DNA from: Bradyrhizobium sp. CIAT3101
GTDB taxonomy: Bacteria; Pseudomonadota; Alphaproteobacteria; Rhizobiales; Xanthobacteraceae
Length of the DNA: 64,000 bases
Reading direction: 5' to 3'
Assembly (NCBI RefSeq): GCF_029714945.1
Contig: NZ_CP121634.1
Location: 1,385,001-1,449,000, forward strand
The position numbers were made by a program, and so were the translations under genes. A model generated the notes under the pieces. The model was given only the letters and a program-made list of their open reading frames with translations. It did not search any database and was not told where the DNA came from. Of the stretch, positions 48,391 to 64,000 are shown in pieces (position 1 is the first letter of the stretch; each line of letters starts with the position of its first letter).

Positions 48391-50310
48391 TCAGCCCGTG
48401 GCCGCGTCGCTGTCGGGAAAGACCTGCGGCAATTGCAGCTGCACGCGCGTGCCCGAGGCATCCGAGCTCAGATCGAGCACTGCGCCGCAGCGCGTGGCGC
48501 GGTTTCGCATGTTGCGCAGGCCGCGTGCGCTCTGGCTCGCGCCCGCGGCTTCGCAATCGTCACCAAGCACAAAGCCGCGACCGTCGTCGGCGACGCTGAT
48601 CACGCCGTACGGTCCCTGGCCGTCGTCGCGCGTCTCGATGGCAACGGCGATGTGGCGCGCAGCCGCGTGCTTGACCGCATTGGTCACGGCCTCGTCCAGG
48701 ATGCGCACGATCTGGATGACGTGCCAGGGCCGCAGTTCGGGATGCAGCGGCAGGCCCTGCGGCGTCGCCACGCGCCAGTCGAGCGCGATGTCGTGCGGCC
48801 GCAACTGCATCGCCGCGCGTTCGCGCCAGGAGCCGAGTGCGAGCATGAGGTCGCCACCGATGTCGTCCATGGAATCGATGACCAGACGCAGATCCTTCAG
48901 CGCGGCGCGCGCCGCATCGGTGATGGTCGCGCCCTCCTGCCCGCGTTCGGAGAGCGCGACGATGCTGATCAACTGGCCGCCGAGGCCGTCATGCAAATCG
49001 CGCATCAGCCGCGTGCGCTCGTTGGCGAGGGCTGCGGCCCGCGCGCGGGCCTCCTCGCGGGCAAAACTTGCCTTCAGCCGCTCCTCGGCCTCGCGCACGC
49101 GCGCGACCAGCTGGCCGGCAAAGCTGTCGACCTGGTTGAGCGCGCGGGCGAAGCGCCAGGTCAGCCCGGCGCCGATCGCAATCAGCAGCGCCGAATAGGA
49201 CAGCCGCGAGACGAAGGTGCGCTCGTTGGGCATGATCTCGAACACCGAGAGCATATCGTGGACCCAGCAGGTCAGCACGATGGTGGCCGCGCAGCCGAGC
49301 GCGAAGCTCGCCACGTCCTTGCGCTTGAGCACGGCGTAGGCCGCGATGCCGGCCATCAGGACCAGGCAGAACCCGACCGTCGGGATGCCCAAAAGCAGGA
49401 AAAGAATGCGCGGCAGCGGCGGACCCGCGATGAGGCCGCCGGCGATCACGATGAGTCCCGGCACGAACAGCAGCGCGCCGTAGCGCGGCCAGCGCCAGCC
49501 GAGGAAGAGCACTGCCGACACCACAATCAGCGCGCTCTCGATCGGTGCGGACGAGAGCAGCACGCCGGCGAGCCGGGACGAGGTGGCCGGCGGCACCGGC
49601 GGCGTCAGGAAGGCCTGCACCACGCCGAGCACCATCGCCAACGCCAGCACGCCATAGACCGGCTCGTGGCGCCGCATCAGCCACATGATGGCGAGGATGA
49701 CGGCCAGGATCGACTGCCAGGCCGAGAACACCACGGGCAGCGTGACGAACAGCAGCGTGCGCGTCTCGTAGGCCGGGCGCAAGGCGGCATCCGGGCCGAC
49801 ATAGACGGTGTCGAGAAACCCGCGCAGCGGTCCCCATACGAACAGCCGGATAGTGATGTCGTTGCTGCCGTCGTGCAGCAGCGATGGCGGGATGACCGCA
49901 ATCTCGGGCGTGTTGCGGTCGGGCCGGTTGGCGGTGGGATCGCGCCGGGAGTCCAGGATCGCGACGCCGTTGACCGCGATCTCCGCGCCGTTGCTGAAGC
50001 GCGGCAGGAACACCGACCAGGTCGTACCGGCGGCATCGGGCTTGAAGATGAATTTGCCCGAATAGAGCGGCGGATCGGCCAGCGAATAACGCGACGCCGT
50101 GAAATGCGGCAGCGTCACGGGCCGCGTCGTGCCGGCCTCGTGCAACGAGAATTCGCCCACCGCAAAATCGTCGGGATCGTGCGGCTCCAGCAGCCGCAGC
50201 CCGAGCATGGTGGCAAGCACGATCAGCGCCTGGAGCAGCAGATACGGCACGATGCGCGCGAGCCGCAGCCTGTGCCGCGAGACCACGGCCTTCGCGGCAA
50301 TCTCGCTCAC
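48391..50310 (-). CDS. Sensor histidine kinase, NarL-type partner (HisKA_3)
   Basis: A 639-residue membrane kinase. The first helix is at about 20-42, a beta-rich periplasmic domain follows (45-190), then about six to seven helices (195-390), a coiled coil (395-435) and the kinase core. The phospho-accepting histidine is in LMRDLHDGLGGQL near residue 440, with N box DEAVTNAVKHA near 540 and G box VADDGRGF near 585. The layout resembles 7TM-DISM sensors. Its start overlaps the response regulator stop by four bases, so the two form a coupled pair. The signal is unknown. Confidence 0.9.
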   Translation of the reverse strand: MSEIAAKAVVSRHRLRLARIVPYLLLQALIVLATMLGLRLLEPHDPDDFAVGEFSLHEAGTTRPVTLPHFTASRYSLADPPLYSGKFIFKPDAAGTTWSVFLPRFSNGAEIAVNGVAILDSRRDPTANRPDRNTPEIAVIPPSLLHDGSNDITIRLFVWGPLRGFLDTVYVGPDAALRPAYETRTLLFVTLPVVFSAWQSILAVILAIMWLMRRHEPVYGVLALAMVLGVVQAFLTPPVPPATSSRLAGVLLSSAPIESALIVVSAVLFLGWRWPRYGALLFVPGLIVIAGGLIAGPPLPRILFLLLGIPTVGFCLVLMAGIAAYAVLKRKDVASFALGCAATIVLTCWVHDMLSVFEIMPNERTFVSRLSYSALLIAIGAGLTWRFARALNQVDSFAGQLVARVREAEERLKASFAREEARARAAALANERTRLMRDLHDGLGGQLISIVALSERGQEGATITDAARAALKDLRLVIDSMDDIGGDLMLALGSWRERAAMQLRPHDIALDWRVATPQGLPLHPELRPWHVIQIVRILDEAVTNAVKHAAARHIAVAIETRDDGQGPYGVISVADDGRGFVLGDDCEAAGASQSARGLRNMRNRATRCGAVLDLSSDASGTRVQLQLPQVFPDSDAATG

Positions 50311-50984
50311 AGCTTGATCAGGCCCTGCTGGACCGCTTCGAACACGGCTTCGCTGCGCGTGTGCACCTCGAGCTTGCGGTAGATGTTCTTGATGTGGCCG
50401 GGCACGGTCTGCCGGGACAGGCCGAGATGGCTCGCGATCTCGGCGTAGCTGAAGCCCTTGGCAATGCCCCAGAGGATGTCGATCTCGCGCGGCGTGAGTT
50501 TTGCAGTGTTGAGCACGGGCCCCGGCGGGGGCTCGGCGGAGTTTTGCGTTCGCCGCACGATGAAGCGCGCGATCGAGGCCGAAATCGGCGAATGCCCGGC
50601 GACCAGATCGCGCACGGTGGTGGCGATGTCGGTCGGGAAGGCGTCCTTGAGCAGATAGCCGGTGGCGCCGACGGTGATGGCGGAGATCACGCTTTCCTCG
50701 TCGCCCAGCGCCGAGATCACCATGATCTCGGTGTCCGGAAAGCGCCGTCTGGTCTCGCGGATCAGCTCGACTCCATGGCCGTCGGGCAGCCGCAAATCGG
50801 TCAGCAGCACGCGCGGCGCGCCGCCAGCAAGCGCACCGCGGGCCTCGCCGAGCGAGCCGGCCGTGCGCACCTCGTATCCGGCCTTCACCAGCGCGTCCTG
50901 AAGACGCCAGCAGGTCGGTGCGTCGTCTTCGACGAGGAGGATGGTGATGGCCTCACCGGTCTCGCCCTGGTCCGTCATGATCAT
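50307..50984 (-). CDS. Response regulator, NarL/LuxR family
   Basis: A 225-residue regulator: receiver domain (residues about 13-130) with acidic pocket Glu19-Asp20-Asp21 and phospho-acceptor Asp63 (LLTDLRLPDG), then a LuxR-type HTH (about 160-220) with LTPREIDILWGIAKGFSYAEIASHLGLS and HIKNIYRKL. The usual TVKxHI is TVPGHI here. It is the first gene of the pair with the downstream kinase (four-base overlap). Targets are unknown. Confidence 0.93.
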   Translation of the reverse strand: MIMTDQGETGEAITILLVEDDAPTCWRLQDALVKAGYEVRTAGSLGEARGALAGGAPRVLLTDLRLPDGHGVELIRETRRRFPDTEIMVISALGDEESVISAITVGATGYLLKDAFPTDIATTVRDLVAGHSPISASIARFIVRRTQNSAEPPPGPVLNTAKLTPREIDILWGIAKGFSYAEIASHLGLSRQTVPGHIKNIYRKLEVHTRSEAVFEAVQQGLIKL

Positions 50985-51056
50985 GGTCCCGGCCGCGCGT
51001 CCCCCGCGGCGCGCGAGCCAAGCTTAGCCGCGGCGCCACGTGCGCGACACCCATAA

Positions 51057-53750
51057 TCATGGGGGCGGGGGCGCTGGCAACCGCTGGAGCCGGATCGTCG
51101 CCGTTCCGCTGTTGTTTTTGTAGAACTGGACGCGCCGGCCCTGGACCGGCAGGAGCCAGCGCGGCGCGTGCCGCGTGGAGATGAATCGCGGGAAGAGCTG
51201 GACGGCGTCGTTGACGTAGAAGAACAATTCGCCGGCCTCGGGCGCCTCGAATTCCGCGACGAACAGCTCGGACAAGCCCTGCTTGCGCCAGAGCGCGCGC
51301 GCCGCCGGCAGCGCCGCTTCCGGGATCGGCTCGAAATCCCCGAACGGTTTCCAGACGCGATTCAATTCGCTGCCCGCTGTCTTGAACTCGGCGGAGTCCT
51401 CGACATGGATCGGGTAGTTGTTCTTGCTGTCGTCGTCATAGGCCGGCACCGTCGCGTTGACGCGCCGCGGCAGCTCGCTCGCCGGCACTCCGTTGATGGC
51501 CTGCAGCGGCAGATCGTATGATCCGCGCGCGCCGATCCGCACGACCGGCTGGAACCAGTTCGCGCCCTGAAGCCGCAGGATCGGAACGGCCATGCGATGG
51601 GTCAGATCCGGCGGGGTCGTGAATCCGTTCAGGCCGGTCATGATGGTGCGGTCGAACCACGGATCGGCCATTTGAATCCAGACGCGGTATTTGCGGCCCT
51701 TCTCGACCGCGAGGCGGCTTGGCCAGCAGAAATGGCTGACGTCGAACAATTCGCCGTCGCGCGCCGTCACCGGCGTGTCGCCGATGGCACGCGTCGAGGC
51801 GCTGCTCTTGCAGAAGTCGCCGACGCCCGCGCGCCATTCGAGATAGCCGCGCGACAGCAACAGCACAGCGGAGCCGAAAATGGCGATCAGGAAAATGCCC
51901 GGCATCAGCACGTTGGTGAAAGCCATGCGCACCGGCCAGGCGTGCAGTCGCATCCAGCGGCCGATCGCGAGCAGCCAGCCGGATTTGCTGACCCGCTTTC
52001 GCGAGGCCATCCGGTCGGGCCGGTACCAGGCCAGGCGCGCGCGTTCCTGGATGCTGTCGCGCAGCGCCGCATTCCTGTTCCACGCGATCAGGATGATGAT
52101 GACGAGGACCGTGGTGACGAAGGGATAATACAGCGCGATCGCAAGCCATGGCGCCGCGTAGGACGGCAGCACGCTCGCGAGCAGATCGGCGAACGGCTTG
52201 ACGACCGTGCTCGTGCCGTTGTCGATCGCCGTGATCACTTTGAGCAGCGTGGTGTCTTCGAGACCGTGCTCCTTGGTCGACCCTACGACGGAGCGCGCGA
52301 TCCACGGCCATGCGACCAGGACGCCGAGCGCGATCAGCAGCGAGAAATAGGCGAAGCGGCGCCACCACACGGTGTCGAGAACCTGACGCGCCATCTCGGG
52401 ATTCGGCGGGCTCATCGCCATGAAGGCGTCGGCTTCGGCCGCCCTGTGGCCATCGCCTTCTCGTTTCGCGTAGGCGGACCTCATGGCCTTGCGCGTTTCG
52501 TCCCGCGTCAGCGGCAGCACCTGTCCATCCGGCAGCAGCACCCTCGCATTGGCCGGAAGCATCAGCGGCGCATAATTGTCGCAGCCGTGCAGCATGCGCT
52601 CGACCACGCCGAAGTGCACCACCGGCGGTCCGCCATCTTCCACGCGGTCGTGGATCGGTCGCGGACCGTAGCGGTACAGCACGCCGGCCCCGCTGCGCGA
52701 ATCGTGGATCGGCCCGATCGCCGACTGATATTGGCGGAAGTGCTCGATCGTGCCGTCCTGGAAGCGGAGCTGGTCGCCGAGTTGCTCGGCCATCCACACC
52801 AGCGGCACGAAGGACAGCGTGGATTCCGGATAGCCGCCGCCGATGTCGGAATGGACGCCGGCGAACCACACCTCCTTGACGATTTGTCCCTCGGCAAGGC
52901 CGGCCTGGTCGATGCGCAGCGGATGGAAGGTGGTACGTTCGTCGTCGAGCGCGAGCGCATGACAGGCGTGCTTCACCTTGTCGGAGAGCCGGTAGTTTCG
53001 GAACGAGATCGGCCAGATCGCCCAGTCGATCGCGACACGGAGCTCCTCGATCGGAACCCCGAACGCCTCGACCGTGTCGAACAGTCCGAGGAATTCGATT
53101 CGGACCTCCTTGCGGCCGTCCATGGCCTCGCGAACCTCCGCATAGGAGCGCTGCCGAAAGACGAGTTGATAGAGATAGATCAGCACGTCGCGGATCCAGC
53201 GCACGATCCAGATCGTCGGCAGGCTGTAATAGCCGACCGATTGCTTGCGATACGCCCGCCACGCGGCCATCGTGTTGCGCTGCATCTCCGCATGCGACAC
53301 GGCGACCTTGTCGATGACGGCCGGCACCAGCCCCTGGCTCGCGATCAGCGCCGCCAGCGTGCGCGCGGTGAAGGCGCCGCGGCTGAAGCCGAAGATGTAG
53401 ATCTCGTCGCCCTCGCGCCAGTTCCAGCACAGGAAGCGATAGAGCTTGCGGACGTTGGCGGGCACGCCGATGCCGGTGGCACCGTCGAGGGCGGCGAGCG
53501 GCGCCCAGCCGGCGGTGCCGACACCCTTGATGTAGTAGGCGATCTGGTCGGGCTTGGTATGGTCGAGCGCCTCGTAGAGGCGCCAGACGCTGGATTCCTG
53601 GGTGGTGAAGGCGTTGCCGGTGCCATCGGCGAACAGCACCAGCTTGCGGGGCGCACGCGCGTCGGCCGCATTCGTCGTGGCATTGGAATCTTCGTGCGTT
53701 TGGTCCGGCCTTGCGGGACCGCCATGCAGCGCCCTGTCGTGGTGCGTCAT
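51057..53750 (-). CDS. DUF2235 (Tle1-like) alpha/beta hydrolase, membrane protein
   Basis: An 897-residue protein starting MTHHDRALHGG. Residues about 30-400 form a DUF2235 hydrolase domain: LVLFADGTGNAFTTQESSVWRL near the start and the nucleophile elbow GFSRGAF near residue 118. After it come three membrane segments (near 465-485, 525-550 and 615-640) and a large C-terminal region with no known domain. DUF2235 includes type VI secretion phospholipase effectors (Tle1), but no secretion, immunity or VgrG gene is nearby, so this may be a housekeeping or orphan lipase-like protein. The upstream in-frame ATG at 53807 is less likely. Confidence 0.85.
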   Translation of the reverse strand: MTHHDRALHGGPARPDQTHEDSNATTNAADARAPRKLVLFADGTGNAFTTQESSVWRLYEALDHTKPDQIAYYIKGVGTAGWAPLAALDGATGIGVPANVRKLYRFLCWNWREGDEIYIFGFSRGAFTARTLAALIASQGLVPAVIDKVAVSHAEMQRNTMAAWRAYRKQSVGYYSLPTIWIVRWIRDVLIYLYQLVFRQRSYAEVREAMDGRKEVRIEFLGLFDTVEAFGVPIEELRVAIDWAIWPISFRNYRLSDKVKHACHALALDDERTTFHPLRIDQAGLAEGQIVKEVWFAGVHSDIGGGYPESTLSFVPLVWMAEQLGDQLRFQDGTIEHFRQYQSAIGPIHDSRSGAGVLYRYGPRPIHDRVEDGGPPVVHFGVVERMLHGCDNYAPLMLPANARVLLPDGQVLPLTRDETRKAMRSAYAKREGDGHRAAEADAFMAMSPPNPEMARQVLDTVWWRRFAYFSLLIALGVLVAWPWIARSVVGSTKEHGLEDTTLLKVITAIDNGTSTVVKPFADLLASVLPSYAAPWLAIALYYPFVTTVLVIIILIAWNRNAALRDSIQERARLAWYRPDRMASRKRVSKSGWLLAIGRWMRLHAWPVRMAFTNVLMPGIFLIAIFGSAVLLLSRGYLEWRAGVGDFCKSSASTRAIGDTPVTARDGELFDVSHFCWPSRLAVEKGRKYRVWIQMADPWFDRTIMTGLNGFTTPPDLTHRMAVPILRLQGANWFQPVVRIGARGSYDLPLQAINGVPASELPRRVNATVPAYDDDSKNNYPIHVEDSAEFKTAGSELNRVWKPFGDFEPIPEAALPAARALWRKQGLSELFVAEFEAPEAGELFFYVNDAVQLFPRFISTRHAPRWLLPVQGRRVQFYKNNSGTATIRLQRLPAPPPP

Positions 53751-53933
53751 GGGCTCCTCCGAAAATCCAGTTGGGATGCTTAAACCTGCCCGGGCGGCAT
53801 CCTTCAAAATTCAATCAGTGGTTTTGTCGTGAATGAATGGATGTATTTCGCCCATAATCGCGCTGAGGTAGCAAGGACGATTGCGCCGTTTCGCTGCGGC
53901 TGTCTATGATCTCCGCCACAATCGGCAAAAGAA

Positions 53934-53955
53934 ATGCCCGGGCAAGCCCGGGCAT
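53934..53955. repeat. Short palindrome
   Basis: Arms ATGCCCGGGC and GCCCGGGCAT around two bases, the core of the 10899-11023 repeat family. It lies in the 257-base gap between the DUF2235 gene and the next small gene; nothing else is recognised there. Confidence 0.6.
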
Positions 53956-54007
53956 GACTCCCATCTGCGAAGCGGCCGCTCTTGCGAAGCGGTGGTGTGG
54001 TCGGCTC

Positions 54008-54259
54008 TTACCTGCCGTTGCCGCGGCAGGCCCCGCCAGGGCCGATATGGTAGCCGCGCGGGCAGGCATGCGCGGCGGGGTTGGCGAAATTGCGCAGGCA
54101 GCCGCCATAGGGGCCACGGTGCCAGCCGGCGCCGCAGCCGCCGGCGACCGCGATGACATAGCCATTGCCTTGTGCGCCGAACGGCGCCAGCGGCATGGCC
54201 TGGGCCGAGCTGACGATTGCGCCGAGCGCGAGCGCCGCGGCAAACACGGTTCGTATCAT
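54008..54259 (-). CDS. Small secreted GCG_CRPN-type protein
   Basis: An 83-residue exported protein: signal peptide (MIRTVFAAALALGAIVSSAQA), then GGCGAGWHRGPYGGCLRN and ACPRGYHIGPGGACRGNGR. The GCGxGWHRGPYGGC motif matches a recurrent domain in small Bradyrhizobium secreted proteins that I recall as GCG_CRPN. Four cysteines may pair. Function unknown. It lies 25 bases downstream of the next small gene on the same strand, so both may share one transcript. Confidence 0.78.
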   Translation of the reverse strand: MIRTVFAAALALGAIVSSAQAMPLAPFGAQGNGYVIAVAGGCGAGWHRGPYGGCLRNFANPAAHACPRGYHIGPGGACRGNGR

Positions 54260-54284
54260 GCGTCTTGCTCCCTGATGTCTGCGG

Positions 54285-54527
54285 TCAGTGGGTGGCTGCG
54301 AAAGCGATGCCGGCGCGTACTTCGGTGATCGCCTGGTCGATCAGCCCCAGCGCCCGTTCGCGATGACCGCCCTTGTTGGGCTCGGCCTTGACCAGCTCGG
54401 CGCGGGCCGATTGCAGGATCGCCACCGCCTCGTCCATGTGCGGTTGCGCGCCGAGCGCGTAGCCGATGCAGAGGCTGGTTGCGATGGCGCCGCCGAGCAC
54501 GAGGCTGCGGGGTAGAGAGGTTCGCAT
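54285..54527 (-). CDS. Small secreted hypothetical protein
   Basis: An 80-residue protein with an N-terminal hydrophobic signal (LVLGGAIATSLCIGYALGAQ) and a short helical mature part (DEAVAILQSARAELVKAEPNKGGHRERALGLIDQAITEVRAGIAFA), possibly a two-helix hairpin. A GGAGGAGACAACG ribosome-binding site precedes the ATG. No family recognised. The 295-base region up to the AraC gene holds no other gene I can support. Confidence 0.72.
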   Translation of the reverse strand: MRTSLPRSLVLGGAIATSLCIGYALGAQPHMDEAVAILQSARAELVKAEPNKGGHRERALGLIDQAITEVRAGIAFAATH

Positions 54528-54822
54528 GTCGTTGTCTCCTCCAGCGGGCGTCAGGCTGGGGCCGCCCGGTTGCCCGGACGCGATTCGCGTGTGGCGGGAT
54601 GTCGCATCCGCAGCCTGAATAGGATGGTGGCGTGCGGCTCGTCTTGGACTGTCCGGCGCCCGCGGCCTTGCCGCTTGGACTGACCGGCGCAGCTTGAATC
54701 GGGTGACGGTACTGGTAGCCTATGACCGTCGGCCTTCAGCGCGGGTCCATCCGCGGCTTGCAAGGCTCAGTCGTTTTCTGCGCGATTTTTTCCGAAAAAG
54801 CTTTTCCCGGAAGTCCTTGTCG

Positions 54823-55782
54823 ATGTCCGTCATCAGGAAGTCGCTCTCGACCGCGATGCTGCCGCAGGACTTGTCCGACCGGCAGCGCTTCATCCGTTTC
54901 GCCGAGCTGTTCGAGCATTTTTCCAACACCGGCGAGCTCGATCCGGCCTCCGACGTGCCGTTTCGCGCCGCCATGAACTCGATCCATATCGGCACCACCA
55001 TGCTCGGCCGCTGCGACGGCAGCTTCGTCACGGTGCGGCGGGAAAAGCGCCAGGTGATCGAGACCGGCGATGACCGCTTCTGCCTCGCGCGCAACACCGG
55101 CGATCTCTCCTCGCAGGTGATCCATCGCGGCCGCGAATTCACCATGCGGCCGGGATCGATGGTGTTGTTGAAGCTCGACGAGCCGTTCTTCGCTGCCGAC
55201 GGCGCGAGCCAGAAGCGTTTCACCAACGTGCATCTGCCGGTCGATTCACTGCGCGCGATGGTCACCGACGTCGACGACCTCGTTGGCTGCGAGCTTGAGC
55301 CCGGCGGCGCGCTGTCGCTCGTGATGGACTACAGCGATCTGCTGCTTCGTCATCCCTCGGCCGCCGACGAGGCCGGCATGGCGATCGCGTCCCATTTGCT
55401 CGATCTCGCCGCGATCGGCCTGGGTGCCCGCAGCGACGTTGCGGCCGCGGCACGACGCCGGGGCCTGCGCGCGGTACGGCTGAAGGCCGTGCAGTCGATT
55501 CTCGACGCGCGCTTCCACGAGCCGGATTTCTCCGCGCAAAAGCTCGCCACTGCCGCCGGTCTCTCCGAGCGCTACGTCAACGAGCTCTTGTTCGAGGCGG
55601 GCGCGAGCTTCACCACCCGGCTGACCGAGTTGCGCCTGCGCAAGGCGGCCGACCTGCTCGCCCATCGCGAGGGGCGCATCAGCGACATCGCGTTCGCCTG
55701 CGGCTTCAATGATCTGTCGTATTTCAATCGCTGCTTTCGCCGCAGGTTCGGCCTGACCCCGACCGCGGCGCGGGGCAAGTGA
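54823..55782 (+). CDS. AraC-family transcriptional regulator
   Basis: A 319-residue regulator: an N-terminal AraC-binding-like sensing domain (residues about 15-205) and a C-terminal AraC HTH pair (about 218-315) with FSAQKLATAAGLSERYVNELLF and RISDIAFACGFNDLSYFNRCFRRRFGLTPTAAR. The MSVIRKSLSTAML start at 54823 is preferred; the open frame continues 129 bases upstream without family-like sequence. The target is unknown. It is convergent with the short gene at 55790. Confidence 0.87.
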   Translation: MSVIRKSLSTAMLPQDLSDRQRFIRFAELFEHFSNTGELDPASDVPFRAAMNSIHIGTTMLGRCDGSFVTVRREKRQVIETGDDRFCLARNTGDLSSQVIHRGREFTMRPGSMVLLKLDEPFFAADGASQKRFTNVHLPVDSLRAMVTDVDDLVGCELEPGGALSLVMDYSDLLLRHPSAADEAGMAIASHLLDLAAIGLGARSDVAAAARRRGLRAVRLKAVQSILDARFHEPDFSAQKLATAAGLSERYVNELLFEAGASFTTRLTELRLRKAADLLAHREGRISDIAFACGFNDLSYFNRCFRRRFGLTPTAARGK

Positions 55783-55789
55783 GGCGCGC

Positions 55790-56023
55790 CTAAGGCGTCT
55801 CCACCCTCGGCGGCGGATATCGGCGCGCCAGCATCGACAGCGGCAGGCGCCGCTCGTCCAGCGGCAGCTCCAGCCAGGCCAGCACTAGCGGCCGCTTCCA
55901 GTCGCCGACACCGAACTCCATGTCGACCCATTTCTGCGGCTCGGGCCCGTCGAGGCCGCGGACCCAGACGAAATAGCGGGGCGAATCGTCGGCGCCGGTG
56001 TCCGTCGTCGGTCTCCTGGCCAT
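55790..56023 (-). CDS. Small hypothetical protein
   Basis: A 77-residue soluble protein: an N-terminal polar part (MARRPTTDTGADDSPRY) and FVWVRGLDGPEPQKWVDMEFGVGDWKRPLVLAWLELPLDERRLPLSMLARRYPPP. It is tryptophan and proline rich. No family recognised. It ends eight bases from the AraC gene end and is divergent from the DUF6314 gene. Confidence 0.65.
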   Translation of the reverse strand: MARRPTTDTGADDSPRYFVWVRGLDGPEPQKWVDMEFGVGDWKRPLVLAWLELPLDERRLPLSMLARRYPPPRVETP

Positions 56024-56146
56024 CACTTGCTCACTGTCTCGACACGCATTATCGCAAGGATATAGGTAGCGGCGCCGCAAAGTCGAACGCGGGCCCCGCG
56101 GATTTTGCGAAACCACGAAGCGGCCGGACGCCTGGGTCCAGAGCAC

Positions 56147-56608
56147 ATGAACGAAACCGTGATCGATGCTTGGGATGATGCGTCGCAGGTGATGACGCGG
56201 CTGGCGGGGCGCTGGTCGTTCGACCGGGTCATCGCAGGTCAAGGGAGCATGCGGGGTCTTGCGACCTTCACGCCGTTGGGCGCGGAGCGCCTCGCCTATC
56301 GCGAGCAAGGACGCTTGAGGCTCCAGAACGGCACCGAGCTCGAAGCGGAGCGGGAGTACGTCTTCCGCGGGCGCGACCGGGGATTCGAAGTCTTCTTCAA
56401 GGAGACGCCGCCACGGCTATTCCACGCGATTGAGCTTGCTGCATCCGATGGTGGCGCTCTGAACGGAAGCGCCGGCCATCTGTGCAATCTCGACAATTAT
56501 CAGTCGACCTACACCTTCCTGGCCGATGGTGGCTTCGTCATTCGTCACGTCGTGTCGGGTCCGCGCAAGGACTACACGATGATCACGACCTACACGCGGG
56601 CCGCGTGA
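56147..56608 (+). CDS. DUF6314 family protein
   Basis: A 153-residue beta-barrel-like protein, MNETVIDAWDDASQVMTRLAGRWSFDRVI, with blocks GSMRGLATFTPLGAERLAYREQGRLRLQNGTELEAEREYVFR and FFKETPPRLFHAIEL...HLCNLDNYQSTYTF, matching my memory of DUF6314. Probably a small lipocalin-like binding domain. The start at 56147 is preferred over an in-frame ATG at 56105. Function unknown. Confidence 0.75.
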   Translation: MNETVIDAWDDASQVMTRLAGRWSFDRVIAGQGSMRGLATFTPLGAERLAYREQGRLRLQNGTELEAEREYVFRGRDRGFEVFFKETPPRLFHAIELAASDGGALNGSAGHLCNLDNYQSTYTFLADGGFVIRHVVSGPRKDYTMITTYTRAA

Positions 56609-56677
56609 GGCTCGGGGATCGCGACAATCACGTTGCGTCGAAGCCACTGCGGATTGCCGAAGCGTCGTGCGCCACGG

Positions 56678-57535
56678 CTAGCGCTTCGGCTTGCGAAGCA
56701 CCATCCTGCCTTTTGAAGTCATGCCATCCCAGCTGGCGGACCAGCTGACTTCCGGGGCGGAGGACTTTTGATCCCAGGTCCCCTGCAGCGCAAACAGGCC
56801 GCCTTGGGGATCGACGCATCGCAGGATCCAGCAATCATCCGGCAACTCGATCGGCCCCTGGAGAATCCGGCCTCCGCCGGCATGGACCCGCCTGGCCGCC
56901 GCGCCGACGTCGTCGACATTGAAGTAGTGCAGCCAGCACGCGTGCGGCACGCTCGGAAGTTTGGTGAGCATGCCGCCGACCGTCCGTCCAGCCGCCGAGA
57001 ACAATTCATACACGCTCGCCGGATCGTTTTCGGGAGAGGCCTGTTGCCAGCCAAGGAGCTCTCCGTAGAACGCGAATATCCGGCTCCGATCCGCGGCAAG
57101 CAGCTCGTGCCAGCCCACGCGTCCGGGTTCATCCGATCCGCCCGGTTGCGATCGGCCATATGTCAATCCTGTGACCAGCGCAAACGTCGCTCCTTGCGGA
57201 TCGGCGACTACCGCAATGCGGCCGATGTTGCTGTCTGTCGGTGAGACCAGGATGGCGCCTCCAAGCAGGCCGATGTGAGCGGCCTTCGCATCAACGTCAT
57301 CGACGGCAACGTAGCCGAGCCATCTCGGCGTTGCCCCCATGCGCACTCCCTCTTCCGGAAGCGCCATGAGCCCGGCGACCGGAGCGTCAGCCGCATTCAG
57401 CAGCGTGTAGGCCAGTTCCGCGGTGGACGCATCCTTCGTGGTCCAGCCAACGATCTCGGCGTAAAAAGCAGCGGCCGACCGCCTGTCTGTCGTCAGCAGC
57501 TCATACCAGACGAAACCTCCGACCCGATCGATCAA
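56678..57535 (-). CDS. VOC family protein with two glyoxalase-like domains
   Basis: A 285-residue protein with two vicinal oxygen chelate modules. Domain one is VGGFVWYELLTTDRRSAAAFYAEIVGWT...ADPQGATFALV; domain two is VGWHELLAADRSRIFAFYGELLGWQ...VDPQGGLFALQG. Such tandem VOC proteins bind small molecules or metals; some give resistance to bleomycin-like glycopeptides. It lies next to, and divergent from, the TOMM precursor gene, but a link to self-protection is only a hypothesis. Confidence 0.86.
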   Translation of the reverse strand: MIDRVGGFVWYELLTTDRRSAAAFYAEIVGWTTKDASTAELAYTLLNAADAPVAGLMALPEEGVRMGATPRWLGYVAVDDVDAKAAHIGLLGGAILVSPTDSNIGRIAVVADPQGATFALVTGLTYGRSQPGGSDEPGRVGWHELLAADRSRIFAFYGELLGWQQASPENDPASVYELFSAAGRTVGGMLTKLPSVPHACWLHYFNVDDVGAAARRVHAGGGRILQGPIELPDDCWILRCVDPQGGLFALQGTWDQKSSAPEVSWSASWDGMTSKGRMVLRKPKR

Positions 57536-57675
57536 ATTGTCTTCTCCGTTCGGGCGGGCAGGCGATTGCGCACTGCATCATGCGCCATGGTCCGGCATGC
57601 TCGACGCAAAATTGCCGCGATGTCGTTCATGAAGATTACAAAGCAGCCTCTCGACATCTTGTCGATGCGCAATTC

Positions 57676-57704
57676 TTGCTCGCTTGGGTTGCTCGGCGTA
57701 GGAT
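57676..57704 (+). promoter_or_regulatory. Candidate promoter of the TOMM precursor gene
   Basis: TTGCTC (57676-57681) and TAGGAT (57699-57704) are 17 bases apart, about 50 bases before the precursor ATG. A small inverted repeat TCGAC-ATCTT-GTCGA (57651-57665) lies just upstream and could be an operator. Weak by eye. Confidence 0.3.
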
Positions 57705-57753
57705 GCCTAGAGGAATATCGTTCTCATTCTTCCCGGATTTGGAGGATGCGGCC

Positions 57754-58206
57754 ATGCGGCGAACGAAGCAAGCTTCGAAAAAAGTTCGAATGACCAAAGC
57801 CGCAGTGCCGGCCCTCGGAGTAGCCGGGCTGACTTTTTCGCTGGCAGGCAGCGCATATGCGACAGCCGCAGTTCCGGCAGGCGACGCGCCGCAAAGGCTG
57901 AACGTCATGCCTGGCCAGTTTACCCAGCTCAGCGAGGAAGAACTCGCCGATGTCAGCCTTGCCACTTTCCATCTCGCCAGCGATGAGAAAACCTTGAGCG
58001 GCATCCTGCTCGCGCGGGGATGCGGTGGCTGCGGTGGCTGTCGTGGCTGCGGCGGTTGTCGCGGCTGCGGTGGTTGCAGAGGCTGTGCGGGCTGCAGAGC
58101 CTGCCGCTGCGGCGTCGGTTGTGGCGTTGGCATTGGCTGCGCCATTGTTGCGCCCGTTGCATGCACCGGGTGCTGCGCATCGTGGGGCCGCTGCCGCTGG
58201 TGCTAG
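57754..58206 (+). CDS. TOMM precursor peptide, Cys/Gly-rich core
   Basis: A 150-residue ribosomal peptide precursor. GGAGG eight bases upstream supports the ATG at 57754. Residues 1-35 have a basic start (MRRTKQASKKVRMTK), a hydrophobic stretch (AVPALGVAGLTFSLAG) and AYA, like a signal peptide. Residues about 36-85 form an acidic leader with QLSEEELADVSLATFHLASDEK, a likely recognition element for the modification enzyme. The core (about 88-150) has 18 cysteines: CGGCRG units repeated about three times, decayed copies (CAGCRACRCG), then GVGCGVGIGC and a C-terminal CTGCCASWGRCRWC. Cysteines after Gly/Arg/Ala are classic substrates for thiazole formation. The gene for the modification enzyme follows 232 bases downstream. 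Related long precursors occur in Bradyrhizobium as far as I recall; the product is undescribed to me. Confidence 0.87.
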   Translation: MRRTKQASKKVRMTKAAVPALGVAGLTFSLAGSAYATAAVPAGDAPQRLNVMPGQFTQLSEEELADVSLATFHLASDEKTLSGILLARGCGGCGGCRGCGGCRGCGGCRGCAGCRACRCGVGCGVGIGCAIVAPVACTGCCASWGRCRWC

Positions 58207-58438
58207 GCGTTGGCGCTCCCTGACGGGACATCGACAGGTCGCGATTTCATTGGCCGGGCTCGCAAGGACCCGGCCAGTTTGCTGCGTGCGTCAGGACGTT
58301 CGTGTCATGCAGTCCGTCCGCTTGCCGATGGCGAGCGAGTATGTTCCAACTCATGCAGAGAAGGTCGGTGCCCGCGCGAAGCGTTCGTCGCGTGACGGCA
58401 ATCGGAAATGACGGGAACAGGATCAGCGTGCTGCCCCG

Positions 58439-60679
58439 ATGACAGTCGAGCGAAAGAGCCGCACCGCGAAGCAAACCCGCAAGGACATTTTGCGATTCGC
58501 GCCAAACTTCACCGCCTATCTGCTTCCTCCCAACGCGGTCTGTCTCTATTCCGAGGCCCGCAAGTTCTTTTTGCACGGCGACCTCTATTGTGAGTTGGCG
58601 CGTGCGATCGGAAAGAACGGCAAGGCTGCGTCCGAGCTCATCCGTGAGCTATCGAAGCGTTTTCCCGTGGCCGAGATCGAAGAGGCGATCAGGCGGTTGC
58701 TGGAGCGCCGATACGTCGTCAGCGGAGCATCGCATGGCGGCGTCGTTGACGGATATTGGGCAAGCCTCGGCCTGCCCCCCGACATCGCGGAAGAGAATCT
58801 CCGCAACTGGCCGGTGCGGGTGGAATCGATCGATGTCAAAGGCGCGAGCGAGCTGAGCGCGGCTTTGAGCAAGCTTGGGGTTCAGATCGCCAAGCGATCG
58901 CCCCGGCTCGTCGTCACACTCGTGAACGACTATCTCGATCGGCAACTCTCCGAGATGAACGAGAAGCGCGTGGCTGACAGGGCGCCCTGGCTGCTGGTGC
59001 AGCCATCAGGCGTGTTTCCGCTGGTGGGGCCCGTGTTCAAGCCGGGCGAGAGCGCCTGCTGGACTTGCCTGCATGATCGCATGATCCGCAATCGCGAGAT
59101 CAAGGGATTTCTCGACCGCGGAGCTGCGCAGGCCGTCGCCGTGTCGCCGCTCGTCAGCGGCACCGTCGGACAGACCGCGATCCACTTTGCCGCGGTTGAA
59201 ATCGCCAAGGCGATCGCCTCCGGATTTCGCACCGATCTCAGCGATCACATCGCAAGCTTCGACCTGACCGGAGCTGTCATCGCCAAGCACTACGTCGCGA
59301 AACGTCCGCAATGTTCGGCCTGCGGCAGCAAGAAGCTCCGGAATCCACGACGAGCGGCGGTGCCGATCGAGATCGCCGAAGGCAGAAAGCTCGTCATGAC
59401 CAGCGGTGGGTACCGCACCGTGACGTCGCGCGCCACGGTGGCGAGATTCCGCAAACACGTCAGTCCGCTGACCGGCGTGGTGTCGCGGCTCGAGCGGATC
59501 GAAGCCGATCTGCCGATGAACACCAATTTCTTCGCGCACCACAATTTCTCCGCGCCGGCCTGGAACGTCGACCAGCTCAGGTCCGGCCTGAGCGGGGGCA
59601 GCTTTGGCAAGGGCTCCACGGCCGAGCAGGGCGAGGCCAGCGCGCTGATGGAGGCGATCGAGCGCTACTCGGGCATTTTCCAGGGTGACGAGATCAGGGC
59701 GACGCGCCGCTTTGCCGATTTCGCGCCCGGTGATGCCCTTCTTCCCAACGACGTCCAGTTCTTCAGCGATGCGCAGTTTCAATACAGGCATGCCCCGTTG
59801 CCTGACGATTCGCATCCGGTTCCCGAGCCATTCGATCCCGCGAGCAGGACCGAATGGTCGCCGGTCTGGTCGCTGCGCGACAAGCGCTTCAAATATCTCC
59901 CGACCGGCCTGCTGTATTTCTTCTATGGCGGCTTCCACACCGATTCCAACGGATGCGCGGCCGGCAACACCCGCGAAGAGGCCATCGTTCAAGGCTTCCT
60001 CGAACTGGTCGAACGCGATGCCTATGCGATCTGGTGGTACAACCGCGTGCAGCGCGCCGAGCTTGATTTGACGCAGTTCGAGGATTCCTACGTGCGGGAT
60101 ATTCAGCGTCAGTTTGCCGATGCGGGGCGTCGGCTCTGGGTGCTCGATATCACCAGCGATCTCGGCATTCCTTCCTACGTCGCGATCATGCACTGGATGC
60201 AGAATGGGCACGAGAATATCGAGTTCGGATCCGGCTCGCATTTCGATCGCCGCATCGCGCTGTTGCGTTCCCTCACCGAGCTGACCCAGTTCATGTCGAT
60301 AGGCATGATGAGCGGTGGAAGCGGCGAGAAGCCGTCCCTCGACGGTGTTACGCCGCTGCGGCTGGACGATTATCCGTTCCTGATCCCCAGCGACAATCCC
60401 GTTCTGCCGCCTGCCCCCGGCCTCGAGGTCCATGACAATACCCGCGACCAGGTCAACGCCTGCGTCGAGATCGCAACGCGCGCAGGTTACGACTTCCTCG
60501 TGCTCGACCAGACGCGGCCCGATGTCGAAGTCCCCGTCGTCAGGGTGCTCGTTCCGGGCCTGCGGCATTTCTATCGCCGCTTTGGGCCAGGCCGGCTTTA
60601 CGATGTGCCGGTGAAGCTGGGGCTGCTGGACCGTCCGCGGCTGGAAAGCGAGCTGACTCCGTTCCTGCCACACACCTGA
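58439..60679 (+). CDS. TOMM cyclodehydratase, fused E1-like/YcaO protein
   Basis: A 746-residue fusion of the leader-binding/E1-like (C) and YcaO (D) parts of an azoline synthetase. Residues about 18-95 look like the winged-helix recognition element (RRE). An ocin-ThiF-like part follows with two CxxC pairs, CWTC (207-210) and CSAC (292-295), expected to hold a structural zinc. The YcaO domain (about 345-746) has the ATP/Mg motifs GSTAEQGEASALMEAIERYSG near 395-415 and GCAAGNTREEAIVQGFLELVERDA near 504-527. It should use ATP to turn core Cys (and Ser/Thr) into azolines. The C-terminus ends LTPFLPHT, without the PxPxP found in many such proteins. The 232-base gap upstream holds no convincing gene. 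Confidence 0.92.
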   Translation: MTVERKSRTAKQTRKDILRFAPNFTAYLLPPNAVCLYSEARKFFLHGDLYCELARAIGKNGKAASELIRELSKRFPVAEIEEAIRRLLERRYVVSGASHGGVVDGYWASLGLPPDIAEENLRNWPVRVESIDVKGASELSAALSKLGVQIAKRSPRLVVTLVNDYLDRQLSEMNEKRVADRAPWLLVQPSGVFPLVGPVFKPGESACWTCLHDRMIRNREIKGFLDRGAAQAVAVSPLVSGTVGQTAIHFAAVEIAKAIASGFRTDLSDHIASFDLTGAVIAKHYVAKRPQCSACGSKKLRNPRRAAVPIEIAEGRKLVMTSGGYRTVTSRATVARFRKHVSPLTGVVSRLERIEADLPMNTNFFAHHNFSAPAWNVDQLRSGLSGGSFGKGSTAEQGEASALMEAIERYSGIFQGDEIRATRRFADFAPGDALLPNDVQFFSDAQFQYRHAPLPDDSHPVPEPFDPASRTEWSPVWSLRDKRFKYLPTGLLYFFYGGFHTDSNGCAAGNTREEAIVQGFLELVERDAYAIWWYNRVQRAELDLTQFEDSYVRDIQRQFADAGRRLWVLDITSDLGIPSYVAIMHWMQNGHENIEFGSGSHFDRRIALLRSLTELTQFMSIGMMSGGSGEKPSLDGVTPLRLDDYPFLIPSDNPVLPPAPGLEVHDNTRDQVNACVEIATRAGYDFLVLDQTRPDVEVPVVRVLVPGLRHFYRRFGPGRLYDVPVKLGLLDRPRLESELTPFLPHT

Positions 60680-60691
60680 GGGCTGGCCTCG

Positions 60692-62149
60692 TTGCGCGCT
60701 CCCCGGAAAAAGCCGACCAGGACGAGCGCACCGATCATCGCCGCGCGACTGAACGGCCGTTTCTCCTTTCAAATGCAGGCGGATGGAAGCATCGCCGCCG
60801 TCTCGGCCGACTATTCGGTCAGTCTCGGGCAATTCGGCGCGGCGGCGATCGACCGTGCCGGACATCTCGTCACCGGCCTGCCGCTCACCGCCCTTGCCGG
60901 CAAGAGCGCGCTGGCCAAGCAGCTTCATGCGCTGGTGCAGCGACTGGCGCGGCACGGGCTGCTCGACTATCGCCTGTACTCTCCGCATGATGCGCAAGAT
61001 CTCGTGGTCATCGAGCCGCAGGTCGCCGAATACTGGCCGGAGCGCGCAAAGCTTTCGAGCGGCGATACGATTGTGTTGTCACGCTTCGCCTATCTGCGCC
61101 GGCGCGGGAACGAGATGGTGCTGGAATCGCCGCGCGCTGGCGCGTTATTCCGGATTTGCGATCCCGCCATCGCCGCGACGTTGGCTCGCTTGTCGCAGCC
61201 TCACAAGGTCAACGCGCTTCGCAAGCAAGTGGCTTCCCTGAACTCCGATCTGCTCGCCTTGCTGCTCGATAGCCGGATGCTATTCAAGCTCGGGGCGAAG
61301 GACGGCGACGGCACGCGGATGAGCGAAGGGGATGGCAATCTCGTGCTCTGGGATTTCCACGACCTGATGTTTCACACCCGGAGCACGGAGGGCCGCCATG
61401 CCGATCCGGTCGGTGGCGCCTACGCCTATGCAGGCGCCGTTCCGCCGCTGCCCGCAGTGCGCCCGCTCTGGCCCGGCAGGAAAATCTCCCTCGGCCAGCC
61501 GGCCAAGCCGGAGGCGGTGTCGCCCTTCGCAAGACTGTTGCGCGAACGCCATTCGACACGGGATTTCGACGACCGGCATCCGGTCACGCTCGTCGAGCTC
61601 GCGCAGTTTCTCGGCACCTCCGCCCGCGTGCTGTCGGAATGGAAGAGCGGTGCCGATTTCGACGAGGGCGTCGAGGTCACCTACAGTTCGAGGCCGTATC
61701 CGGCGGCAGGCAGCGCATACGAGCTTGAATTGTACCTGGCGGTCTCGAACTGCGAGGGGCTGGCTCCGGGACTTTATCATTACGACGCCGGCAGCCACGT
61801 GCTGGTCGCGATCGACGCCGCTGCCCAGCACCTGCGGGCGCTTTCAATGGCCGCCGAGTTTGCCATGGGCGCGTCCGGTCCGCCGCAAGTCCTGATCACG
61901 ATCGCCGCGCGTTTCGGACGGATCTCCTGGAAATACTCCTCGATCGCCTATTCGCTGATCCTGAAGGACGTCGGCAGCCTGATCCAGACATTCTACCTGG
62001 CGGCGACCGATATGGGCCTCGGCGGCTGCGCCATCGGCACCAGCAACATCGAACAGTTTGCAAAGATGACGGGGCTCGCACTCGACGTCGAAGGCCCGGT
62101 CGGCCAGTTCGCACTCGGACGCGGGAGCAAACCGCCGGGCGCGGGCTAG
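60692..62149 (+). CDS. SagB-type dehydrogenase (FMN nitroreductase family)
   Basis: A 485-residue protein starting with TTG at 60692, 12 bases after the cyclodehydratase stop, with GAGGG overlapping that stop, so coupled. The C-terminal half (about 270-480) is a SagB/McbC nitroreductase domain: RERHSTRDFDDRHPVTLVELAQFLG near the start, RPYPAAGSAYELELYLAV near 335, and the final DMGLGGCAIGTSNIEQFAKMTGL. The N-terminal half is the family-typical extra domain. With FMN it should oxidise azolines to thiazoles/oxazoles, completing the modification. Confidence 0.92.
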   Translation: MRAPRKKPTRTSAPIIAARLNGRFSFQMQADGSIAAVSADYSVSLGQFGAAAIDRAGHLVTGLPLTALAGKSALAKQLHALVQRLARHGLLDYRLYSPHDAQDLVVIEPQVAEYWPERAKLSSGDTIVLSRFAYLRRRGNEMVLESPRAGALFRICDPAIAATLARLSQPHKVNALRKQVASLNSDLLALLLDSRMLFKLGAKDGDGTRMSEGDGNLVLWDFHDLMFHTRSTEGRHADPVGGAYAYAGAVPPLPAVRPLWPGRKISLGQPAKPEAVSPFARLLRERHSTRDFDDRHPVTLVELAQFLGTSARVLSEWKSGADFDEGVEVTYSSRPYPAAGSAYELELYLAVSNCEGLAPGLYHYDAGSHVLVAIDAAAQHLRALSMAAEFAMGASGPPQVLITIAARFGRISWKYSSIAYSLILKDVGSLIQTFYLAATDMGLGGCAIGTSNIEQFAKMTGLALDVEGPVGQFALGRGSKPPGAG

Positions 62150-62179
62150 TCCGATATCTCCGGATGTCGCCGGCGCAAA

Positions 62180-62360
62180 CCGTAAGGGAGGTCCACCTTC
62201 ACCAAGGCTGCGGCGGGACAGCCTTCGCGGCTTCGCCCGGATCGGGCTTTGCGCTGCGTGGTTCGCGGTCCGTCTTCGCCAAGAGGCTTCGCCGGACACG
62301 CTTCGCCCGTTCGGCCTTGCGTGGCTGCGCCACGCGAAGCCCAACGGGCGAAGCGTGGTG
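62180..62360. repeat. Inverted-repeat block after the TOMM locus
   Basis: A large imperfect hairpin at 62297-62357 pairs CACGCTTCGCCCGTT...GCGTGGC with GCCACGCGAAGCCCAACGGGCGAAGCGTG. The stretch before it is rich in CTTCGCC/GGCGAAG variants. This is repeat DNA, not a gene. The remaining part of the 763-base gap (62360-62912) is less GC-rich and holds two AATACCGACA-type direct repeats (62429-62453) and the tRNA-like fragment listed separately. Confidence 0.65.
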
Positions 62361-62635
62361 CCCCTGGCCGATAATCAACTAGTCGCATAACAAATTGAAT
62401 TTGTGATACTTTTAGTCGTCGACTGCCTCAGATACCGACAGGAATACCGACAAGATGATGGACGGGAGGTGTTCGCAAAAAATAAATCTGCGAGCGCTCT
62501 GCAGCACGCACAGTCTTGCGGTTCTTGTCTTCATAACCGCCGGCCGGAGTCGAACCCGGCTCAGACTCGAAATCTTTAGGGAGGCGGGGCGAGCGCTTAC
62601 TCAGCAGCTTTCAGTTTTCTTCAAGAAGAGTGATT

Positions 62636-62670
62636 AAAGATTGTGAGTTTGACTCCCACTCTCTCCGCCA
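62636..62670 (+). other. tRNA-Ser-like 3' fragment, possible attachment site remnant
   Basis: The sequence ends TCTCTCC-G-CCA (acceptor strand, discriminator and CCA) and is preceded by a T-arm-like GTGAG-TTTGACT-CCCAC with one stem mismatch and a T-loop one base off consensus. This is what the 3' end of a tRNA-Ser gene looks like after integration of an element and later decay. No 5' half (GGAGAGA) is visible upstream, so it is not a functional tRNA. Confidence 0.4.
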
Positions 62671-62912
62671 TGTGCACGATTTCTACGCCAACCTGCGATT
62701 TTGAACGATTTTCTGCGCGGTAGCGCGCTGTCAGATTTGGTGCGTGCGCAAGGCAAAAATGCTCCGGTCGATAGCTCACGTTTGGTCGCAAACGGTGTCA
62801 GTCGGCTGACTGTCGAGGTTTCACACAAAGCCAATCAGTCGAGGTGAGGCCAGCCAGCGGTTCACATAATGAATGTTTGTGGAATGCCGGACGAAGGCAG
62901 TCCTGCTTGCCC

Positions 62913-63818
62913 TTACCTCGCAGTTCGGGGTGTAGGAGGGTATTCAATCAGGATCGGTGCAGCGATGTCGATCCGGCCGCTGTTGGCGACCTCGATGCCG
63001 AGCCCCAGCGACCACTTTCCTGTTGAAGCGGCCGGCATTCGCGCGCGCCATTTATCCGCAGAGATCCGCTCGGCCGCGACCGTAACGGGAGCGATCTGCT
63101 GATCCGATCTAGAAAGTGTCACAGACAGGGCTTGCGCGATCAAAGGCTGCTCGTTGGCATCTTCAAGCTCAATACGAACCACCACGTGACCCTCACGCTC
63201 GGGCGAAACTGTAACATTTGCCATGACTTGGGTCCCGCAGATGTGGGTGAAAAAATCCTCCGGCGCTGGCGCGCCGGAAGAAGTTGCCGGCGCAGCGGCC
63301 GCGGCCGCAGCAGCGATCATCTGGGGTCCCCGAGCTCCTATGCTTCCAACATCGAAAGTCACATCGATCTTGCCGGCTTTCTCGAAAATCAGCACAGCGT
63401 CAATGTGCTCGCCGTCGCTGAAGGGTGCTTTGATGCCGATGAACATCAGATGGCTGCTGCCAGAAGCGAGCGTCACGCTGCCGCCGGGCGGGATGGTGAG
63501 CCCATCCTCGACGGGCCGCATCACCATGATGCCGTTCAGAGTCATCATCTCGTGGATCTCGATCTTCGTGGCACCGGGCGTAGCCGCGGAAATCAGCCGA
63601 TCAGGGGAAGGGCCGTGGTTCTCAATGGTGAGGTAGCCGCCAGCAACCTGTGCGCCTTTCGGCGCGGCTCTGCTCCAGGCCTGCTTGACGCTGATTTCGC
63701 CAGCCCGCGCCGATGTCGCCGCCACGAGCAGGGCGATCGACGCTAATACGCCGTATAGTGACAGGCGAATGCGGGTGGGTCGCAAAGCGCATGCTGTCGT
63801 GGCAGCGATCGTCATCAT
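62913..63818 (-). CDS. PCuAC copper-binding protein fused to a second periplasmic domain
   Basis: A 301-residue exported protein: signal peptide (ending TSARAG, residue 40), a PCuAC domain (about 41-160) and, after a poly-alanine linker (IAAAAAAAAPATSSG), a C-terminal beta-rich domain (about 200-300). The Cu(I) ligands are visible as His89 and Met91/92 in HEMM, Met98/100 and His123-x-Met125 in SSHLMF. PCuAC proteins carry copper to cytochrome oxidase. The C-terminal domain resembles YtkA/FixH-like domains and has one cysteine (THICGT). Usual PCuAC proteins are about 160 residues, so the fusion is unusual. The last 182 bases of the window, upstream of this gene, show no clear gene. Confidence 0.85.
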   Translation of the reverse strand: MMTIAATTACALRPTRIRLSLYGVLASIALLVAATSARAGEISVKQAWSRAAPKGAQVAGGYLTIENHGPSPDRLISAATPGATKIEIHEMMTLNGIMVMRPVEDGLTIPPGGSVTLASGSSHLMFIGIKAPFSDGEHIDAVLIFEKAGKIDVTFDVGSIGARGPQMIAAAAAAAAPATSSGAPAPEDFFTHICGTQVMANVTVSPEREGHVVVRIELEDANEQPLIAQALSVTLSRSDQQIAPVTVAAERISADKWRARMPAASTGKWSLGLGIEVANSGRIDIAAPILIEYPPTPRTAR

Positions 63819-64000
63819 GGTTCATTTCCATCTGCAGCAGCAGGCCTGCGGACCGGCGGTCATTGTGTTCAGTTTGTCTTCGGCGGGTGCGAACCTCTTC
63901 CAGTGTTCACTAAGTTAGCGCTTCCCTGTCGCAACGGCTGGAGGCGACGACGGCGATAGCGAGCGACCGAGAGCGCTAGTTTCTCTGTCTTGCACCGGAT

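Follow-up and report, generated by a model that had tools for sequence, protein, structure and literature searches.

What does a short run of genes in Bradyrhizobium sp. CIAT3101 with the marks of azole-peptide biosynthesis produce, and which genes belong to it? The locus lies in a 64,000-nucleotide stretch of contig NZ_CP121634.1 (positions 1,385,001–1,449,000), referred to as the window, of a complete genome of 9.37 Mb. At window positions 57754–62149 the plus strand encodes, in this order and in the same direction, a precursor peptide of 150 residues (57754–58206), a fused leader-binding/E1-like and YcaO cyclodehydratase of 746 residues (58439–60679) and a SagB/ThcOx-type flavin mononucleotide dehydrogenase of 485 residues (60692–62149). 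An earlier interpretation from the bare DNA, here called the sequence-only reading, had described a compact three-gene locus for a thiazole/oxazole-modified microcin (TOMM), consisting of a Cys/Gly-rich precursor, an E1-like/YcaO fusion and a SagB-type dehydrogenase. The open reading frames are in place in the claimed order and have strong family matches, and comparative evidence supports a cassette of the TOMM or linear azol(in)e type of ribosomally synthesized and post-translationally modified peptides (RiPPs), which probably turns the Cys-rich protein into a thiazole-studded peptide. The TOMM type and the three genes thus stand, but the unit is larger: position 57536, the start given previously, is merely the edge of the intergenic region, and the unit extends to the minus-strand gene at 56678–57535. 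This gene is divergent from the precursor gene, encodes a two-domain protein of 285 residues of the vicinal oxygen chelate (VOC; glyoxalase/bleomycin-resistance) superfamily and belongs to the cassette as a consistently linked fourth member. We favour, with a probability of roughly 0.6, a four-gene azole-peptide cassette in which thiazoles would be installed in the precursor, the product would leave the cell by the Sec route and the VOC protein would bind it for self-protection.

The matches of both enzymes to their families are far stronger than chance. In the family profile search the YcaO fusion matches PF02624 (E 1.1e-89) and TIGR03882 (E 5.2e-43), and its score against the SagD family TIGR03604 (216.9 bits) falls just short of the cut-off of 219.25. 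Among solved structures its nearest relatives by sequence are the RiPP cyclodehydratases LynD, TruD and MusD; the alignment to LynD (4v1t, E 4e-139) covers residues 17–741 and runs nearly end to end, and TruD (4bs9) follows with E 1.9e-136. As judged by this sequence comparison with solved structures, which takes the place of a YcaO tree, the protein does not group with non-RiPP families; such a grouping is what the sequence-only reading had named as contradicting it. The CxxC pairs and YcaO motifs noticed there were found again as CWTC at residue 207, CSAC at residue 292 and YcaO/catalytic blocks common to LynD in the alignment. The dehydrogenase matches TIGR03605 (E 2.4e-50), the ThcOx model PF22767 (E 1.1e-34) and also PF00881, and among structures CyaGox (8pz5/5lq4, E 5.2e-55); the columns of its WKY motif at residue 413 are invariant across 56 aligned sequences.

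The precursor gene starts with an ATG at 57754, preceded by GGAGG at 57741–57745, and ends with a stop codon at 58206. Its product begins with a signal-peptide-like segment (residues 1–36, 57754–57861), which is basic, then hydrophobic, and closes with GSAYA followed by TA. The conserved leader LSEEELADVSLATFH... (residues 59–83, 57928–58002) contains the columns invariant in the homologue alignment and precedes a Cys/Gly/Arg core (residues 89–150, 58018–58203), which ends in CCASWGRCRWC (58171–58203). All 18 Cys fall within the final 62 of the 150 residues. No NCBIfam or Pfam family matches the window precursor at E ≤ 1, and solved structures give weak matches at most (best E 0.032). A related precursor was nevertheless extracted at 51 of 52 cassette loci, which rules out a chance reading frame; the sole miss, L014, is a 3-kb contig, and the set of 52 omits L038, L039 and L095–L099 as truncated contigs or lineages of 31–36% identity. 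Where positions are given, the precursor lies upstream of the YcaO gene.

Motifs were counted in 82 precursors, comprising those of the 51 cassettes and 31 of the 37 encoded away from enzyme genes (see below); the remaining six unlinked loci (L137, L148, L150, L151, L162 and L164) contain no pattern-readable precursor and were excluded. The extraction pattern demands part of the leader (EEE.AD.SL) and at least 8 Cys, so that the leader consensus L.EEE.ADVSLATF common to these precursors is partly built in. Conservation is independently seen in 16 aligned homologues picked by homology, in all of which the columns L, EE, DV and LATF are invariant, and in two positions of the 82 sequences outside the pattern, namely F at leader position 13 (82/82) and T at position 12 (81/82). 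The C-terminal cap CC.[SR]WG.C..C is found in 48 of the 51 cassette and 27 of the 31 unlinked precursors. Between these two conserved ends the Cys-Xaa-Xaa core varies from 50 to 157 residues and from 10 to 23 Cys, with 51% of 1244 Cys intervals being three residues long, against 14% in shuffled sequence. A basic n-region, with a net charge between +2 and +9 (median +7), the hydrophobic stretch and the subsequent AxA-like site recur in all but one of the 82 precursors, even in diverged ones, according to a loose test on composition used in place of a trained predictor. Three unlinked precursors (L140, L146 and L147, the latter two in one genome) carry a Gly/Gln/Ser-rich end instead of the cap. 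A locus of another genus contains, divergent from its VOC gene (5237–5980), an additional precursor-like gene (L093:4688–5134, minus strand), in which the leader is intact and the core reduced and degenerate.

The inclusion of the VOC gene is based on its linkage to the cassette. When neighbouring genes were clustered over 34 loci, YcaO (34), SagB (32), the precursor (15 with the ORF, or open reading frame, caller and more with tblastn) and one further gene, the divergent two-domain VOC (31), recurred; apart from these, no gene cluster, none of which was annotated singly, reached more than 9 of the 34 loci. By tblastn the VOC gene is present at 35 of 38 loci searched, and the contigs of the other three (L014, L038, L039) end before it. 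At E ≤ 1e-60 it occurs in 86 of 87 Bradyrhizobium genomes positive for the cassette and in none of 108 negative ones. It is adjacent and divergent in 84 of the 87, at 771–1127 bp from the YcaO gene, and lies on a separate contig in two; it was not found in the last one (G185). Of 20 loci from a sample of the surrounding family, 14 have the VOC gene inside the stretch, in two arrangements: upstream and divergent at four (L080, L081, L082, L090) and antiparallel, beyond the end of the dehydrogenase gene, at ten, to which L105 from another family adds an eleventh. The six family loci lacking it are L089, whose linked-type VOC lies on a different contig of the genome (L124), the truncated contigs L095, L096 and L099, and the distant lineages L097 and L098. 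Genome-wide, 21 of 24 cassette-positive genomes of the family sample contain the VOC gene at E ≤ 1e-45. In a midpoint-rooted tree of 44 VOC proteins, which includes 12 from the Bradyrhizobium set and none from L089, a branch with 100/98 support parts 30 linked-type proteins from 14 others, two of which are second copies within cassette-positive genomes. One unlinked precursor (L128, in G053) has its own linked-type VOC alongside, and no enzyme gene within the 14 kb fetched. The VOC beside the unlinked precursor L149 was rejected as a second such pair, as it shares no more than 29% identity over 125 residues and lies about 2 kb off. The window protein itself matches PF18029 and PF00903, shows no signal peptide evident by eye and has its nearest solved relatives, among the families listed, in Rv0577 (3oxh) and AbxF with ca. 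30% identity; the KbpA model NF053614 matches it with E 1.6e-24 and 86.9 bits, far under the cut-off of 250 bits.

The cassette is widespread in the genus. Cassette-positive genomes, defined by a YcaO relative of 69% identity or more, number 87 among the 195 of Bradyrhizobium (two of them, G091 and G185, with partial genes; matches of 35–38% and those to the YcaO domain only were left out). Of 248 genomes sampled across the family, which include some Bradyrhizobium, 26 had a YcaO match at E ≤ 1e-60; these belong to 9 of the 47 genera, and 24 of them reach an identity of about 60% or higher. Order (297 genomes) and phylum (398 genomes) samples gave six matches at E ≤ 1e-100 and five at E ≤ 1e-90, respectively, both including the own genome and two further Bradyrhizobium. 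More distant relatives of 31–39% identity (L097, L098, L106–L111; fusions 31–37% identical by tblastn, L097 with two YcaO copies) look like other azole clusters, and no related precursor or VOC was found in the stretches examined. A distant cassette, L104 (G660), with a YcaO of 57–58% identity, lacks the VOC gene and has a precursor without the C-terminal cap. Record JAUEPE010000004.1 (L005), titled Frankia sp., holds a Bradyrhizobium-like cassette of 92% identity, and its title is probably wrong.

Precursor genes are not confined to the cassettes. At E ≤ 1e-9 the precursor search found 86 of the 195 Bradyrhizobium genomes, every one cassette-positive, and the only cassette-positive genome missed was G185 with its partial YcaO. 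The genome of the window has a single YcaO gene and a single precursor, but 22 other genomes, all cassette-positive, contain 37 additional precursor genes away from the enzymes; one (G031) lies ca. 20 kb from its cassette, the rest farther or on other contigs. No neighbour gene recurs beside them. Since the extra precursors are confined to cassette-positive genomes, precursors appear to depend on the enzyme set and need not adjoin it.

Two signals accompany these genes. Between precursor and cyclodehydratase genes a hairpin, TGGCCGGG...CCCGGCCA (58251–58276), resembling an attenuator or terminator, stands 47 nt after the precursor stop in the window. A perfect stem of at least 7 bp with a CCGG arm follows 44 of 51 cassette precursors but only 1 of 30 unlinked ones, while mononucleotide shuffles contain any 7-bp stem in about 6%; the hairpins of L027 and L033 show paired changes. 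Upstream, a sigma-70-like promoter (57676–57704; TTGCTC, 17-nt spacer, TAGGAT) is predicted by eye on the upstream alignment, and at 57626–57639 lies a degenerate copy, altered in its right half, of a palindrome that reads TTCAT-N4-ATGAA in relatives; the window holds no exact copy. Exact copies stand at similar distances from cassettes (102–135 nt) and unlinked precursors (115–127 nt). In the Bradyrhizobium set 31 of 36 cassettes have one, as do 11 of the 31 unlinked precursors and a single one of 15 loci from other genera, against about 0.01 expected per set from shuffling. The palindrome may reflect shared regulation of cassettes and unlinked precursors, or may merely have been inherited with duplicated genes. 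It was rejected as a family-wide feature: besides the degenerate window copy, 14 of 15 other-genus loci and 20 of 31 unlinked precursors lack the exact form. Its resemblance to the SqrR/BigR operator, deduced for SqrR as ATTC-N8-GAAT in the excerpt of PMC9774250, is a lead only: the match is exact in some relatives, most have GTTC, and the right half is changed in the window.

From these data we propose the following scenario. In analogy to its homologues, the YcaO fusion would bind the leader LSEEELADVSL by its N-terminal, E1-like part and, by its YcaO part, use ATP to cyclise core Cys residues to thiazolines, which the SagB/ThcOx protein would oxidise to thiazoles. The co-occurrence pattern suggests that the same enzymes also serve the extra precursors encoded elsewhere in some genomes, with leader and cap being kept and the core varied. 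The hairpin probably lets the precursor exceed the enzymes in amount. The signal-like segment may then direct the modified peptide into the Sec pathway, where signal peptidase would cleave off the first ca. 36 residues; this route is proposed because the loci of different clades share no dedicated exporter or protease gene. The VOC protein, whose association with the cassette is observed, would act as a dedicated cytoplasmic partner for the azole product. In the simplest case it would be a non-catalytic binder that prevents harm by the product before export, much as bleomycin and phenazines are dealt with by VOC-fold resistance proteins. As in VOC-fold self-resistance systems, the VOC fold is encoded together with the biosynthetic genes. 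As a tentative extension, the family might constitute a distinct Rhizobiales subclass of azole RiPPs, combining a LynD-like/ThcOx-like enzyme pair with dispersed, partly co-regulated and Sec-exported precursors of fixed leader and cap but hypervariable core, and with VOC-based self-protection.

How do other explanations compare? A VOC protein acting as a tailoring enzyme, which catalyses an additional reaction on the azole peptide and may target its C-terminal cap, is a serious rival to a binding role, although we consider it doubtful: L087 and L092 have the VOC despite an altered cap, and the glyoxalase metal-binding residues appear, by eye on the alignment, to be mostly absent. That the VOC gene simply hitch-hikes with the cassette as an ordinary neighbour seems very improbable. 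Related VOC proteins of 41–50% identity do occur in 12 cassette-negative genomes of the 248-genome family sample, where the fetched stretches contain neither precursor nor enzyme genes, but the linked VOCs form a separate tree group, the 11 other-genus loci retain the linkage with the gene on the opposite flank of the cassette while other flanks vary by clade, and one VOC is paired with the lone precursor L128. With respect to the release of the product, the N-terminal segment could be an extended leader instead of a Sec signal, the peptide being released by another exporter or by lysis. In favour of this view, which we regard as unlikely, the conservation of segment AVPALGAAGLTFSLAG exceeds what a plain signal peptide requires, and oligopeptide-type ABC permease, ATPase and binding-protein genes, assigned by scanning one representative of each, lie downstream on the other strand at 8 of the 34 loci, all of one clade (L026–L031, L033 and L036, at ca. 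12–17 kb); it conflicts with the basic n-region, hydrophobic stretch and AxA-like site of nearly all precursors. The ABC (ATP-binding-cassette) genes do not recur in the stretches of other clades and were therefore not counted as part of the cassette. Finally, a metal- or sulfur-handling peptide, serving as buffer or metallophore and not as a weapon of competition, is a distinctly unlikely product. The signal-like N-terminus, the many Cys and the nearly invariant CC...C..C cap would suit such a peptide, as would the fit of the palindrome of some relatives to the SqrR site in the excerpt cited above and a PCu(A)C copper-chaperone gene downstream in the window; these points are countered by the wide variation in core length and Cys number, by the missing recurrence of the PCu(A)C gene as a neighbour, and by GTTC in most palindromes together with the degenerate window copy.

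Several observations weigh against the four-gene scenario with Sec export and VOC-mediated protection. Genomes of one genus are not independent of each other, and chemistry, export and any bioactivity are predicted from sequence, the signal peptide from composition. The ABC genes are possibly a linked transporter in their one clade. No VOC was found in three fragmented cassette-positive family genomes (G268, G307, G321), nor near L104 or anywhere in its genome at E ≤ 1e-15, and a linked-type VOC stands beside only 1 of 37 unlinked precursors, so that not every precursor is accompanied. Moreover, the nearest solved relatives of the VOC protein are a kinase-inhibitor homologue (Rv0577) and a catalytic natural-product enzyme (AbxF), not bleomycin-binding proteins.

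Among known systems the enzymes most resemble those of the cyanobactins, which share the fused E1-like/YcaO architecture of LynD and TruD, aligned over nearly full length, and a ThcOx-type dehydrogenase. The LSEE-type leader motif presumably also resembles the cyanobactin recognition sequence, a likeness not located in the literature searched. The present locus differs by its long Cys-Xaa-Xaa core, signal-like N-terminus, VOC partner and, in 22 genomes, extra precursors. Membership was rejected, as no PatA/PatG-type protease/macrocyclase-like cluster recurs at the locus, the genome elsewhere not having been searched for proteases. In microcin B17-type systems the B, C and D proteins are separate, and the cluster contains an exporter and an McbG-type immunity gene. 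Such a type, which the sequence-only reading had invoked for the enzyme functions, was rejected on architecture, since C and D are fused here and no exporter recurs across clades, and the enzymes are most similar to LynD/TruD and CyaGox/ThcOx; the azole-peptide interpretation as a whole holds; its microcin B17 parallel and its three-gene unit were not upheld. The heterocycloanthracin (HCA)/sonorensin TOMMs of Bacillus are, in the excerpts of PMC2674419 and PMC4603692, characterized by a Cys-Xaa-Xaa core of variable length, a fixed C-terminal motif and precursors far from the enzymes, all of which is alike here. Their cyclodehydratase, according to the same excerpt of PMC4603692, is truncated and requires a separate F protein, whereas the fusion found here is of full length and aligns to LynD from residue 17. 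The F-protein model TIGR03693 (ocin-ThiF-like) matches nothing in the own genome or in any of 14 control genomes. TIGR03601 finds nothing in the window precursor and weakly matches 4 of 16 relatives (best E 0.018), and one UniRef name (P0006) bears the HCA label; HCA membership was rejected on the weak TIGR03601 matches and on the cyclodehydratase, which is not truncated at its N-terminal C-protein domain.

A precedent very probably exists within the genus. A TOMM precursor of B. japonicum with Cys-Arg-Gly repeats, from Lee et al., is mentioned in Haft 2009 and very probably belongs to the present family; the excerpt of Haft 2009 mentions neither a VOC partner nor unlinked precursors, a cap or a hairpin. 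TOMM genes are also reported in the Ash2021 genome announcement (excerpt of PMC11737075). The double-VOC proteins AbxF, Rv0577 and KbpA are alike in fold, without a link to azole peptides among the literature matches listed; no title or abstract among these matches concerns the VOC link or unlinked precursors, and no paper among them a VOC self-protection role for azole RiPPs. New here are the VOC partner, the unlinked precursors, the shared anatomy of signal-like N-terminus, leader and cap, the hairpin and the palindrome found at some unlinked precursors. Precursors that need not adjoin their modifying enzyme are known from the prochlorosins, which differ from the present system as lanthipeptides with other enzymes and another leader. 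One prochlorosin-modifying enzyme serves several precursors (PMC10783134, in excerpt).

Further genes at the 14-kb end of the window, encoding Tle1-like, AraC-type, DUF6314 and PCu(A)C proteins, do not recur as cassette neighbours. The Tle1-like phospholipase catalytic domain is encoded at 51057–53807 (minus strand; PF09994, E 8.9e-69) and the PCu(A)C copper chaperone domain at 62913–63818 (minus strand; PF04314, E 1.1e-35). Neither a tRNA search over the whole window nor an Rfam search of positions 50000–64000 at gathering scores gave a match.

Bradyrhizobium is a common genus of soils and legume nodules, and the 87 cassette-positive genomes are drawn from 195 sampled species genomes. If the proposed scenario is true, these bacteria would possess a one-enzyme, many-substrate azole system, the variable cores of which would provide natural libraries for studying thiazole installation. 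The VOC protein would then represent a new type of partner protein for RiPPs, one accessible to testing, and the product a possible agent of competition among rhizobia.

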